Source: Exobasidium rhododendri (Eukaryota > Basidiomycota > Exobasidiomycetes > Exobasidiales > Exobasidiaceae). From it: 64,000 nucleotides of DNA. Position 1 is the stretch's first letter. Every line of letters begins with the position of its first letter. Shown piece by piece: positions 25,175 to 30,774 of this stretch. Made by a program: the position numbers and the translations under genes. Location of the stretch: positions 4,339,001 through 4,403,000 of the forward strand of contig CP110632.1 in assembly GCA_026210745.1 (NCBI GenBank), in the 5' to 3' direction. A model generated the notes under the pieces. That model saw nothing but the letters and a program-made list of their open reading frames with translations, was not told the origin of the DNA and made no database searches.

Positions 25175-25614
25175 TCGCAGATGGGGACTGCCCGCTACAG
25201 CACTGAGCCGGAGAGGCGTTTGACAGATGGCAGACATGCTAGACGTCTTTTACTTCCGATGAGGTCGGGGGTAGGAGATGTATTAGTAACTTATGTCACA
25301 GGTGGCCCGCGACCTCGACCAAATCGGACTCCTCGAATATCGCGGCGGCACAACCAAAAGTCAGTCACGAGCCCAGAGGCCTCGAAAGGAACGCGGGGGG
25401 GTGTACGACCAATAAGACCGGCGAGAGCCTCAATAAGATTTGTCAGCCGGCCTCGTCCGACAGAGATTCATTCAAAGTGGCACTTATTTAGGTAGATGCA
25501 CCTCTGGATGTTAGCGCGCTTCAGAGGATAATCCTTGTTCTGTGTAAGATTATTAAGGTCAAGGCAACTTCGTAGGTGGAGCTCCTATGTAAAGGCGCCG
25601 GCGACGATCACTCG
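25175..25614. other. Divergent promoter region
   Basis: About 440 bp between SDH4 and the ChaN-like gene. No gene is supported. An ORF at 25181-25495 is Arg-rich with no family features and is judged spurious. Confidence 0.5.
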
Positions 25615-26694
25615 ATGGTGCTGAGACTATGTTCGATGGTGTCCAGGCTCACGCCACCCAGGATCATCAACATGGATAGTCTGCCAACGTATGGTCAAAT
25701 CTGTAGAGCAGCGTCTGAGCCACAGCAGCAAGGAGAAGAGCCGGTGTGCTATTCTAGTATGACGAATGAGATGAATTTGACATCCCTCTTCAGCGCGTCC
25801 ACGTCGCCACCATGCTCCAAAGCGAGGGCGATCTTTGTAGGGGAACAGCACCATCAGCCAAAGGTGCTTGCTGCTCAGTTGCAAATCATATATCAGCTCT
25901 TTGAAGCTTGCAAAGAGCCAAACAGGATACACGTTGTATTTGAGCAGTGGTCACTCCTTGATCAACCGTACCTGAACAGAATCAATCGGCAAGAAGCTGA
26001 CCTTCTCGATCTTCGAGCAAATTCAGAAGAAAGGACTAGTGAAGGATTTGATGTAAATCATTATCTCCCTCTTGTGAAACTAGTCCGTGAATTGGGCGGG
26101 ACGGTTTGGGCAGGTTTTCCACCACGATCATGGGCCTCTCTGATTTCGAAGGCGGAAGATGGTAGTGCATTTGAAAAGGTGCAACAATTCGACAAAGAAA
26201 GGTACACTGCTCACAAAGTAGACTCAGTGGATGGCAAAGACATCGTGCCACCTCTTTCAGTATCCGACTACCGCTATGTTGAAAACATCAGTTGGCCTCA
26301 TCGTTCCTATCTCAAGAGTATGTTTCGACCGGATGAACGACCGCAGAGCGTCGCTGAATCGCAGCATACAGACCCACCCAAGGAAGACAGAGGATTTCTA
26401 GCAGCACAAGCAGTCAAGGACACCTTCTTGGCGCATACAATGACCAGCATACTAGCAGAGGATCCCCTGAATATAGTGGTTGCTGTTGCTGGCCTCGGTC
26501 ACTGCGAATGGGGCTTTGGAGCGCCAGAAAGAGTAAAGGAGATGTCTGGTGTGGACTCCTACTTAATAATGACTAAAGCAGACGACGCTGGGTATTGGAC
26601 AGCAGCACCAGCCTCAGCAAGCGAGAAGCCAGCGAATATATCGTCGGATCGTAGACAAGCAGATGCCATTATATTGTACAATTGGGTTGATTAG
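25615..26694 (+). CDS. ChaN-like (haem-binding uptake/Tiki superfamily) protein
   Basis: Intronless; 359 aa from the ATG at 25615. The core matches the ChaN family (PF04187, Cofac_haem_bdg): AIFVGEQHHQP near the N-terminus, HVVFEQW, a central helical region, and the C-terminal VAVAGLGHCEWGFGAPERV with its Gly-His motif. ChaN is an iron-regulated haem-binding lipoprotein in bacteria; eukaryotic members include chloroplast and fungal proteins of unclear function. The first residues (MVLRLCSMVSRLTPPR) lack acids and could be a mitochondrial presequence, but the ATG at 25672 is an alternative start. The family is known mainly from bacteria and plastids, so an old transfer is possible. Confidence 0.75.
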   Translation: MVLRLCSMVSRLTPPRIINMDSLPTYGQICRAASEPQQQGEEPVCYSSMTNEMNLTSLFSASTSPPCSKARAIFVGEQHHQPKVLAAQLQIIYQLFEACKEPNRIHVVFEQWSLLDQPYLNRINRQEADLLDLRANSEERTSEGFDVNHYLPLVKLVRELGGTVWAGFPPRSWASLISKAEDGSAFEKVQQFDKERYTAHKVDSVDGKDIVPPLSVSDYRYVENISWPHRSYLKSMFRPDERPQSVAESQHTDPPKEDRGFLAAQAVKDTFLAHTMTSILAEDPLNIVVAVAGLGHCEWGFGAPERVKEMSGVDSYLIMTKADDAGYWTAAPASASEKPANISSDRRQADAIILYNWVD

Positions 26695-26807: not shown

Positions 26808-28994
26808 CTATGTGGCTCTTCGACGAATGATGCGCTTGATGGGCTCGATGCACACCCGAGCAAATGGTCCTGCCAGAGCAATGCAGGCTCCGATTCGCAA
26901 CGGGAAGAGGGCTTTAGTGATGGCGTACGCAGCGACTGCATTGGCAAACGTGCCTACCAATTTGCTCGAAGAGATCGTGGATGGCTTGCCTCCTGTTCCA
27001 TCGGCCTCGATGCTCGACGCTTCCTCGAATCCAAAGTACCCTTTTCTTCTACCAAATTTCTCCGCTCTGAGAGCTCCTTCGTTGATCTTGTCACGAAGCC
27101 AGCCTTTCGCACCTCCCTCCTCGCCCCCTGTCTCACTCACTTCCAATAGCCAGTTCATCACCTGGTCTCCCACATCAGTGACCTCTAGCAAGTAGAAAAT
27201 CAAGATTAAGGGAAGTATTGCGGTCAATTCATGCAACACAAAGAAGGATACCACCATGCTGGCAGGATCTGTTCCACTTGACTTCGCCATCTTCCGCACT
27301 CTTTCCACAGCCCGTTGCCTGGTTGACGTTCCTGCTGCATCGCCGATCCACTCCACCTGATCTTTTGCATTCTCCATCCAATGCTTTTTCAGCACAGCAG
27401 GAAGTCGAATTTTCCCACTACTCGAAACGCCGTAGTTCTCCAACAAGGCAACAATCAAGCGAGGAACAGCCACTGCCGTACCATTTAGGGTGTGTGCCCA
27501 CGCAAGACCAGGGGCGAGATTGTCACTTTGTATCGCTTCTTTGGCCGAGACGTCGACATTGTTGGCGGTGTAGCTGATGGAAAGTCGTCTTGCTTGGTAT
27601 TCTGTGCAATTCGAAGCGGACGAGATCTCTCCCCATGATCCTCTTCCTGGCATCCAGGCCTCGATGTCGTACTTGCGATAGGCACTCGATCCCAACTCTT
27701 CCGTCGGCATGTCCAGCACGCGAAACGGTACCCCTAGACCACCTACTATACTCTGCTGGATTCCCCTCAACCTCTCCAACCACTCTTCGCTGTCTTCAGC
27801 TTGGCAAACAACAAACATCTCTACCTTCGTGAATTGGTGTACTCGATACAATCCTCTCGACTCAAGACCTCTCGCGCCAGCTTCAGCTCGAAAGGCGTGC
27901 GAGGTAGCCACATACTGCTTCGGTAAAACTTCATTTTTATACTTATGACCTGCACATAGCCCGGCGAGAGGAATCTCTGCCGTGGCAGTCAGTGCAAGAT
28001 CATCGCTTGACTCTTCTCCTTTCTTCGAGTAAGTTCCATCTTCCTTCAGCCAGAAGATCTGTCCGCCGCCACCGTCTCGAGGTGAGAAGCCAGTCCTGTT
28101 GAGGATGTCTCTCCGTATCGTATCAGGAACAACGACTGGACTGAAATTTGCCTTACATGCTTCTTCCATAGCATAACGTACTAGAGCATGCTCCAGCAAA
28201 GCAAGAGGTCCAAACAAGAGTGGCCAAGACGAACCATTCAGTAGTCGAGTTACTGGCATCGATATCCAACCTTGTTCCGAAGCTATGTTCTGATGGTCTC
28301 TGTCCGTATCTGGACCAGACGCCGCACTGAGAGCCGGAATCTCTTCAAGAGGAATGGGAAGAGACATGTCTTCGAATGCTTTCCTCATCTCCCCATCCAG
28401 CATTGTGCTGTCTCCTCCTTTAGCAATAACAACTGCCTTTTCTTCTCCACCTTGAGGGACTTTTGGGTGTGTGAAGTTTGGCATTCGAAGACGGATATCA
28501 AACACCTCATCATGTAACCTGTCTGATTCGGCATCGATTTCTTTCATCTCTTCCCTCAATTTTCTTGCCCTTTGACGTTCTTGGTCTAGAAATGCTGTAT
28601 CATCCTCACCTGTATCCTCTTTGGATCTGGCCTGCATCCTTGCTCCAAATGATGCGGCTAATTTATTGATCTCCGACTTTACTACTCGGCGTTTCTGTAG
28701 TATGGCGCTGATTCGAGGTCTTAATTCCTCTATTCGAGCAAAGTCGCTTGCTTTGGCTGACCCTTTGCGAATCTTCGAATTAATCTCAGCTATCTCCAAG
28801 TCGTGCTTCCTGAATGACCAGATTGGTCTCGGAAGAGGAAGCAATATCCGCGACGTCATGCTATTCGGTGGCTCGGAAGCTTTGGAGGTAGCAGATCTAG
28901 CAAGCCTGAGTGGAGGATGACAAAGTTGAAGATGGCATTGCCTTCCCGACATACTCAGACCTCTTCCGGTCACGCCCACTCTTGCCATCGTCAT
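26808..28994 (-). CDS. Mitochondrial seryl-tRNA synthetase fused to an Mrx11-like membrane domain
   Basis: Single exon, 728 aa. Residues ~55-539 are a class II SerRS: an N-terminal coiled-coil arm, TATAEIPLAGL, motif 2 FRAEAGARGLESRGLYRVHQF, EISSASNC and motif 3 LNGTAVAVPRLIVALLENYG, ending IRLPAVL. The frame then runs on for 189 residues (from about 27377) without a stop. This part has SMVVSFFVLHELTAILPLILIFYLL, AEKFGRRKGYFGF, and a second membrane segment with AYAITKALFPLRIGACIALAGPFARV. It resembles fungal MIOREX component 11 (Mrx11)-type inner-membrane proteins. A Met begins the added part, so an internal start is conceivable. The N-terminal ~50 residues are Arg-rich, consistent with mitochondrial import. 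The start could also be the ATG at 28988. Confidence 0.85.
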   Translation of the reverse strand: MTMARVGVTGRGLSMSGRQCHLQLCHPPLRLARSATSKASEPPNSMTSRILLPLPRPIWSFRKHDLEIAEINSKIRKGSAKASDFARIEELRPRISAILQKRRVVKSEINKLAASFGARMQARSKEDTGEDDTAFLDQERQRARKLREEMKEIDAESDRLHDEVFDIRLRMPNFTHPKVPQGGEEKAVVIAKGGDSTMLDGEMRKAFEDMSLPIPLEEIPALSAASGPDTDRDHQNIASEQGWISMPVTRLLNGSSWPLLFGPLALLEHALVRYAMEEACKANFSPVVVPDTIRRDILNRTGFSPRDGGGGQIFWLKEDGTYSKKGEESSDDLALTATAEIPLAGLCAGHKYKNEVLPKQYVATSHAFRAEAGARGLESRGLYRVHQFTKVEMFVVCQAEDSEEWLERLRGIQQSIVGGLGVPFRVLDMPTEELGSSAYRKYDIEAWMPGRGSWGEISSASNCTEYQARRLSISYTANNVDVSAKEAIQSDNLAPGLAWAHTLNGTAVAVPRLIVALLENYGVSSSGKIRLPAVLKKHWMENAKDQVEWIGDAAGTSTRQRAVERVRKMAKSSGTDPASMVVSFFVLHELTAILPLILIFYLLEVTDVGDQVMNWLLEVSETGGEEGGAKGWLRDKINEGALRAEKFGRRKGYFGFEEASSIEADGTGGKPSTISSSKLVGTFANAVAAYAITKALFPLRIGACIALAGPFARVCIEPIKRIIRRRAT

Positions 28995-29354: not shown

Positions 29355-30774
29355 CTATCGATATCGGTGGATCTCCTCCTTTTCACGACCTCGCATGTAA
29401 TCAGGCTCTGTGCCCTCGACGTAGATCTTTGACCAAAGATCTTCAATCGGTGGCTCGGGGCTCTGCTTGGCTTCTTCGACCGCTTGATCAACCTCTTCCT
29501 TTGCCGACTTGTCAATCTTCTTCAAGCTAGCTTCATCCACGACGTTCCATTCGAGCATCTTGGCCTTCAGTCCTTGGATAGGGTCACTGCCAGATCGCAT
29601 GCTTGCAATCTCTTCACGAGTTCTGTACGTCGTACCTGGATCAGAAAGAGAGTGACCTCCGTAACGATATGTAACCAGCTCCATGATGAGAGGTCCATTA
29701 CCAGCAAGTGTGTACTTGGAAGCAAATTCGGTAGCTTGGTGAACAGCGAGGACGTCCATGGCATTGACTTGCAGACCGGGAATGACATCTCCTCGAGTAA
29801 AGTATTTTGTGTTCATGCTACTTCTCTCGGCACTTGTACCCATACCGTACTTGTTGTTCTCGCAGACAAATACACACGGTAGCTTCCACAATTGAGCCAT
29901 ATTATAGGCTTCAAACACTTGCCCTTGATTAGAAGCACCATCTCCGTACATGGCAAAGACGGCGTCTTGGTGGCCCAGATATTGTTGCGCAAATGCAATG
30001 CCTGCTCCGACCGGTACCTGAGCTCCAACAATTCCATTTCCACCAAAGAAGGTAGGAGTAAACATGTGCATAGATCCTCCCTTTCCCTTTGAGATACCAT
30101 CAGCCCGACCAAACAATTCGGCGATGACGCTCTTGATCGTGCCACCACGTTGAACAGTAAAGGGATGACATCGGTATGCTGTGATCAGCTTGTCCGTCTT
30201 CTTCATGCCTGACTCCATACCGACAGCAACCGCTTCCTGCGACACAGGGAATCGTGAATAGATTGATCAGCGTACATTCGACAATGCGTCAATACTCCCA
30301 CTACGACACCCACCTGACCGATGGCGAGATGACAGAAACCTCGGATCAGCTTTTGCTTGTAGAGCTGATCAGCTGCCATCTCCATTCGGCGCATCTTGAC
30401 CATCTCTTCATACAGCTTGACCAGGTGCTCCTTACTAGTCTCTACCTCCAAAGAAGGTGTGTTCTCTTCCGATAATTTGTGTGTCTTAAATGATTCCTCT
30501 GAAAGTGAGACTTTGATTGTTTCGGATGGGTGGATGTCATGGATTGAGGTGGGCGATGCGAGCGAGGAAGAGTCGGCGGTGATGTGGACACTTCGACTGG
30601 CAGATGCAACCAAGCTTCGAGATAGCGAGGGCTGCAGGAATTTTACGAGAGTGCAAAGTAAGCTCTGGCACTTTTCTGCGCAATCTTCAACTACTCGTCA
30701 TTGCAACTTACCAGGCTTGCAGTACGGCCGACGCCAGCTGTCGAACGCAGCATGGATCTTGCAAGGGAGGCCAT
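29355..30774 (-). CDS. PDA1: Pyruvate dehydrogenase E1 alpha subunit, mitochondrial
   Basis: Three exons (30712-30774, 30314-30631, 29355-30236), 420 aa, equal to yeast Pda1. The thiamine-diphosphate motif GDGASNQG...NN is intact in FAMYGDGASNQGQVFE...ENNKYGMG. The regulatory phosphorylation-loop sequence YRYGGHSLSDPG is present. The presequence MASLARSMLRSTAGVGR is a clear mitochondrial signal. The protein is the decarboxylating subunit of the pyruvate dehydrogenase complex. Exon joins at phase 0 are clean; HLAIGQ joins EAVAVG exactly. Confidence 0.96.

Follow-up and report, generated by a model that had tools for sequence, protein, structure and literature searches.

A mitochondrial-type seryl-tRNA synthetase continuous with a FLILHELTA domain in Exobasidium rhododendri

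We analyzed a stretch of 64,000 nucleotides from the basidiomycete Exobasidium rhododendri (the whole stretch is referred to below as the window), in which one open reading frame (ORF) on the minus strand (26808..28994) encodes a protein of 728 amino acids (aa) that combines a mitochondrial-type seryl-tRNA synthetase (SerRS) with a FLILHELTA domain. Most simply, the sequence comparisons point to an authentic end-to-end fusion between the nuclear gene of a mitochondrial SerRS and a FLILHELTA gene, made once in Ustilaginomycotina and retained in those lineages where we found it. We consider it probable that this genuine fusion tethers a class II mitochondrial SerRS to the inner membrane, near EF-Tu and the mitoribosomes.

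Two domains in one open reading frame

Read from 28994 to 26808, the minus strand contains 728 codons without a stop, followed by TAG at 26810-26808, and our searches of the organism's own genome recovered the same open frame (734 aa when counted from the preceding stop) with zero internal stops. The two halves are joined in the DNA with no stop between them, and an intron is not needed at the junction. The original prediction, made from the letters of the window, had claimed a frame that stays open past SerRS motif 3; the reading of the minus-strand frame confirmed this, and both membrane-like segments as well as the FGRRKGYFGF block were found in the ORF exactly as quoted there.

The SerRS half extends over residues 72-538 (27381..28781, minus strand), where the NCBI serS equivalog TIGR00414 matches from model position 15 to 417 of 418 and scores 311.1 bits (cut-off 301.65). 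The class II catalytic core (tRNA-synt_2b, PF00587) was found at residues 327-479 (27558..28016, minus strand) with 82.5 bits against a cut-off of 29.3. In an alignment of 21 rows that includes two forms of the window protein (A1), T338-A339-E340, R369, R384 and R512, which belong to the TAE loop, motif 2 and motif 3, are invariant in all 21; R512 falls outside the core stretch 327-479, and we take all these positions to be catalytic. At the N-terminal end the model predicts an arm of two helices, 82-125 and 131-169, in a region covered by TIGR00414; the match to the arm family PF02403 stays below its cut-off (22.9 bits, cut-off 28.2). By these matches, the N-terminal 540 residues are a complete predicted serine--tRNA ligase. 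SerRS enzymes belong to class II and are dimeric.

Several observations suggest that this enzyme is mitochondrial. The closest PDB chains by sequence are the mitochondrial SerRS 7tzb, 7u2a and 1wle, the core was aligned to 7tzb and 1wle, and mammalian mitochondrial SerRS ranked first in a Foldseek search with the predicted model of the whole protein (mean predicted local distance difference test, pLDDT, 86.1; predicted template modelling score, pTM, 0.73). Residues 1-46 (28857..28994, minus strand) form a probable mitochondrial presequence by their composition, with six K/R and no D/E among the first 40 residues; the database form of the window protein (P0002) begins at Met46. The enzyme probably charges mitochondrial tRNA with serine. 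It shares the complete catalytic core, a predicted helical arm, the serS equivalog assignment and the fold with the human (7tzb/7u2a), mammalian (1wle) and fungal (Dia4) mitochondrial SerRS; whereas these known enzymes stop at the SerRS C-terminus, the window protein extends into FLILHELTA.

The junction was placed at residues 551-560 (27315..27344, minus strand; mean pLDDT 69) by matching it by eye to the ends of unfused SerRS proteins. Among the 14 unfused basidiomycete SerRS ends that were printed, eight lie one residue past the tryptophan equivalent to W549 and the other six lie 7-13 residues past it (also by eye). Since unfused SerRS proteins stop where the fusion begins, the fusion looks end to end, with a whole SerRS, a linker and a whole domain. 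The linker has about ten residues in the window protein and is longer in others.

The FLILHELTA domain follows at residues 561-656 (27027..27314, minus strand), covering PF10306 positions 5-79 of 80 with an E-value of 2.5e-15 and 57 bits (cut-off 25), and PF10306 was detected at E<=0.1 in 21/21 A1 rows. The C-terminal part had been called Mrx11-like in the original prediction; in a profile hidden Markov model search it matches the fungal family PF10306 above the cut-off, and together with TIGR00414 and the nearest PDB chains this bears out the claim of a mitochondrial-type SerRS continuous with a C-terminal domain. PF10306 presumably includes the yeast protein YPL041C/Mrx11; a yeast protein label stood on no row of the two FLILHELTA-domain protein searches. 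Pfam still labels the family hypothetical.

With the PF10306 match at this E-value and the recurrence of the architecture in 20 other proteins, the fusion is more than chance. It is very improbable that two genes were joined here by an artefact of assembly, gene modelling or sequencing. Some fungal SerRS models of about 1000 aa do carry unrelated domains (PF07716/PF00170 or PF03127/PF00790) and are maybe neighbours joined by annotation, but the joint in the window lies in one open frame for which splicing is unneeded, and the same junction occurs in 20 other proteins of two classes. A hidden stop, a frameshift or splicing as the source of the joint was ruled out, since the DNA itself reads through and the fusion recurs. 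An internal start for a separate FLILHELTA protein also appears unlikely: the junction methionines, Met540 and Met569, are by eye not common to most of the 21 A1 rows.

In the genome assembly (17.6 Mb, 4 contigs), FLILHELTA was found in a single place, which is this ORF. Apart from this ORF, a search with the whole protein matched only two pieces, both on contig C1 and with 32-38% identity, which are presumably exons of the cytosolic SerRS, and the PF00587 search gave eight places, including the fusion and both C1 pieces. Thus the fusion appears to be the sole mitochondrial SerRS and the sole FLILHELTA protein of this assembly.

Distribution and origin of the fusion

Database proteins were searched with residues 540-728 in the range of about 400-1274 aa, a length limit that favours fusions, and all 20 rows obtained carry both domains, one of them (P0002) being the window's own protein. 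The SerRS core was searched separately, and the best 120 of 7989 matches comprised 18 known fusions and 102 new rows; among the latter, P0085 is a fusion and 101, with a median length of 504 aa, have no HELTA motif. Altogether, 20 fused proteins of 654-837 aa besides that of the window were found among the matches listed. In addition, three fragments (P0022, P0029 and P0031) span the junction. Some of the fused proteins, P0011 and P0021 for instance, begin only far into the SerRS arm and may be truncated models.

The named hosts of the fusion are Meira miltonrushii and Acaromyces ingoldii in Exobasidiomycetes and Thecaphora frezii and Violaceomyces palustris in Ustilaginomycetes. Apart from one row filed under a fern, every named host belongs to Ustilaginomycotina (two classes). 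The fern row (P0009, Adiantum nelumboides) adjoins Meira in the tree of FLILHELTA domains, and it probably comes from a fungal contaminant that lived on the fern. The original prediction had proposed to look for the same fusion in related species, where it was indeed found, for instance in Meira and Acaromyces. Its alternative of separate orthologues in all close relatives did not hold, since the fusion is also present in the nearest relatives recovered, though in Tilletia, which belongs to the same subphylum, FLILHELTA stands apart. No Ustilago, Sporisorium or Malassezia was among the printed names of the listed matches, in protein searches that need shared five-residue words and use length windows, and the absence of a species from them is not evidence.

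The domain-only profile search gave 62 shorter rows, all with PF10306, which divide into three fused fragments and 59 rows without SerRS motif 3. The window protein shares with the PF10306 family the HELTA helix, the GRRxGxFGF-type block and the AYAITKALxPxR helix pair, and differs from those 59 by its synthetase half. Named rows with FLILHELTA alone come from Tilletia, Kwoniella, Laccaria, Trametes, Mycena, ascomycetes and others.

When 76 FLILHELTA domains were placed in a tree, the 21 fused rows (the window protein and 20 others) fell together with P0023 on one side of a branch with support of 99/95. Six Tilletia rows (100/98) adjoin this fused clade, the two jointly receiving 99/91, and 13 rows with Kwoniella and agaricomycetes come next (93/79). 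In a quick tree of SerRS cores, which contained no Tilletia SerRS, a branch that was not starred (support of 90 in the Shimodaira-Hasegawa-like approximate likelihood ratio test, SH-aLRT) splits the 21 fused from 40 unfused rows. These data fit either a single fusion that postdates the divergence from Tilletia or an earlier one that was reversed in Tilletia. P0023, an ungrouped short row inside the fused clade, is 156 aa long and comes from a contig of 1079 bases. It may represent a fragment, or else the fusion was secondarily split there.

The same trees bear on the idea that the fusion is functionally neutral, in which SerRS simply took over the import of FLILHELTA and the halves are independent. 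A single origin, with which both trees are consistent, would fit this reading, as would the separate FLILHELTA of the sister lineage Tilletia and the possible status of P0023 as a split member of the fused clade. However, the fusion persists in 20 other proteins, whose hosts span two classes or more, and remote relatives of FLILHELTA act in mitochondrial translation, so the partner looks non-random. On balance we find neutrality quite unlikely.

Some database entries near these families deserve mention. Four stand-alone FLILHELTA proteins from Tilletia and ascomycetes (P0025, P0027, P0050 and P0081) are annotated as serine--tRNA ligase or mitochondrial seryl-tRNA synthetase and are without SerRS motif 3; these names were probably transferred from the fusion. 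In P0084, a SerRS model filed under Actinidia, the stretch after motif 2 is repeated, which probably inflates its score in the SerRS-core search. Among the models of mitochondrial SerRS with about 1000 aa, those of Rhodotorula and Sporobolomyces (P0111, P0133 and P0183) include PF07716/PF00170, and those of Trametes, Cubamyces and their kin (P0115, P0122, P0151, P0165 and P0176) include PF03127/PF00790. We take these families to be bZIP and GAT/VHS, respectively; the models are either annotation-joined neighbours or further fusions.

The C-terminal domain, FAM210A/B and the membrane

The C-terminal domain is predicted to be all-helical (model of the domain: mean pLDDT 84.1, pTM 0.68). Its first membrane segment is a long hydrophobic helix with FFVLHELTAILPLILIFYLL at residues 577-606 (27177..27266, minus strand), supported by the model and by the hydropathy. 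A conserved helix pair comes after the FLILHELTA domain and reaches residue 727; its helices 676-695 and 697-727 (FANAVAAYAITKALFPLRIGACIALAGPFAR...; 26814..26969, minus strand) form a FAM210A/B-like C-terminal half according to the model and PF06916, with a weaker hydrophobic segment. The best 19-residue hydropathy values in the window protein are 2.25 for the first segment, 1.46 for the second and at most 1.31 within the SerRS part. Across the 21 A1 rows the first helix ranges from 2.04 to 2.57; the second ranges from 1.18 to 1.89 and overlaps the best SerRS segments (1.21-1.82), so there is only one clear membrane pass. The two membrane-like segments that had been proposed are therefore upheld for the first, whereas the second does not stand out.

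The FAM210A/B family (PF06916, formerly DUF1279) matches residues 672-707, within the C-terminal helix pair. On the window protein the match reaches 15.2 bits in full, 18.3 for the domain alone and 18.4 in the genome search, each below the cut-off of 26; at E<=0.1 the family was found in 15 of the 21 A1 rows and in 39 of the 56 rows of a FLILHELTA alignment (A3). The PF06916 scan of the genome gave only two matches, this ORF being the second (E 0.029, under the cut-off). The top match lies on contig C2 (3380702-3381145, plus strand; locus L005) in an ORF of 329 aa with 59.8 bits. We take yeast Mrx15 (YNR040W) to belong to the DUF1279/FAM210A/B family, and the C2 protein is its possible counterpart.

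Profile comparison with hhalign aligned the 56-row A3 FLILHELTA profile to the C2 protein with a probability of 91 (P 9.7e-7). The score of 50.7 stands well over the controls, which were run for A3 only: the maximum was 22.9 in 200 shuffles and 19.3 in 36 other ORFs of the window (at least 150 aa, cut to the first 600 residues). With the nine-row A2 profile the probability was just 15. FLILHELTA and FAM210A/B are alike in the aligned C-terminal helix pair; they differ in that the window protein stays under the PF06916 cut-off, which another protein of this genome, the one on C2, exceeds. On this profile evidence, FLILHELTA is a remote relative of the FAM210A/B domain and not a member of that family.

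Members of the FAM210A/B family have been connected to mitochondrial translation. According to the available part of PMC7863409, FAM210A is a mammalian mitochondrial transmembrane protein that binds EF-Tu via its DUF1279 domain and raises the levels of mitochondrially encoded proteins. It is termed an inner-membrane protein in the accessible text of PMC10564795, and yeast Mrx15 is described as a mitoribosome receptor in that of PMC6211022. Because FLILHELTA is remotely homologous to FAM210A/B, and mammalian FAM210A binds EF-Tu in the account cited above (PMC7863409), tethering near mitoribosomes becomes more likely. If FLILHELTA acts like FAM210A or Mrx15, the fusion would place SerRS beside the factor that receives Ser-tRNA.

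From this anatomy and kinship we infer the following import, topology, location and function. The N-terminus would import the fusion protein into mitochondria, where the SerRS dimer would remain in the matrix, each of its subunits fixed to the inner membrane through the hydrophobic helices of the C-terminal part; a matrix SerRS held to this membrane by its C-terminal domain would be the simplest topology. The FAM210-like part would bring SerRS near EF-Tu and membrane-bound mitoribosomes, and Ser-tRNA would be made at the site of hydrophobic protein synthesis. In a bolder and more doubtful version, which we put forward tentatively, the dimeric class II SerRS of Ustilaginomycotina would have turned into an integral inner-membrane protein through its fusion with a FAM210-like translation receptor and would pass Ser-tRNA straight on to EF-Tu and the membrane-bound mitoribosome, with SerRS and FLILHELTA as physical partners in other fungi too.

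Some tandem precursors of yeast mitochondria, such as Arg5,6, are cleaved. By analogy, the fusion could be a shared precursor in which a matrix protease cuts the linker, so that SerRS becomes soluble and FLILHELTA a membrane protein of its own, and would then matter for co-expression only. The linker does vary strongly in length and sequence among the fused proteins, the model is less confident there (mean pLDDT 69 at residues 551-560), and basic sequence comes after it; in addition, the stand-alone FLILHELTA proteins of Tilletia have an N-terminal extension of their own that is absent from the fusion. Yet the stand-alone relatives in Tilletia have, by eye, this basic helix too, within the domain itself, and it need not be a cleavage signal, and the shortest linkers, such as that of the window protein, offer only about ten residues. 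We regard cleavage as fairly unlikely and prefer the intact, membrane-tethered enzyme.

Other membrane-associated synthetases and neighbouring genes

Synthetases with a membrane anchor are known from cyanobacteria, where, in the accessible part of PMC4893482, a CAAD membrane domain is appended to several class I aminoacyl-tRNA synthetases. As in the window, a membrane domain that also occurs in stand-alone membrane proteins sits on a synthetase without a paralogue (PMC4893482); the CAAD systems differ in the domain itself, in their thylakoid membranes and, as stated in that text at its date, in comprising monomeric class I enzymes only. Its authors propose that oligomeric synthetases may be structurally disfavoured (PMC4893482). 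The CAAD family is absent from the four Pfam matches of the window protein at E<=0.1. Pfam includes a CAAD model.

Human mitochondria offer a second comparison: mt-ArgRS was found in the membrane fraction and mt-AspRS in both fractions, the anchoring being urea-sensitive for the former and salt-sensitive for the latter (PMC6120215, available part). These are likewise mitochondrial synthetases at a membrane; unlike the window protein, they are anchored in a urea- or salt-sensitive manner, and the accessible text mentions no appended membrane domain (PMC6120215).

The original prediction had called a membrane-tethered synthetase a new arrangement. This is too broad, as membrane-anchored synthetases are on record (PMC4893482 and PMC6120215, in the parts available); what does stand is that the literature matches listed offered no example of a mitochondrial class II synthetase to which a membrane domain has been added. 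Among the matches listed in open-licence PubMed Central, titles and the beginnings of abstracts described neither a SerRS-FLILHELTA fusion nor any class II mitochondrial synthetase with an appended membrane domain, and neither FLILHELTA nor Mrx11 together with MIOREX had any literature match there. The architecture is already on record, with both Pfam domains on database rows, and apparently not discussed in the literature.

The fusion to an enzyme of mitochondrial translation provides good guilt by association for FLILHELTA, which is present across basidiomycetes and ascomycetes, and the kinship to FAM210A/B ties these proteins to a family studied in mammals. A class II SerRS with a membrane domain speaks against the idea, put forward in the accessible text of PMC4893482, that oligomeric synthetases are unlikely to gain anchors. 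The fusion also makes the channelling of a synthetase to membrane-bound mitoribosomes a testable question.

Two neighbouring ORFs of the window were annotated along the way. On the plus strand, 25576-26694 encodes a ChaN/Tiki-superfamily haem-binding-like protein (PF04187, E 1.3e-25) in this fungal genome. On the minus strand, 29355-30613 corresponds to a dehydrogenase E1 component, probably pyruvate dehydrogenase E1 alpha, with PF00676 in 29355-30245. By eye, this E1 ORF seems to be continued in an overlapping ORF of another frame at 30203-30613, and there may be an intron or a frameshift in the E1 gene near 30203-30245.
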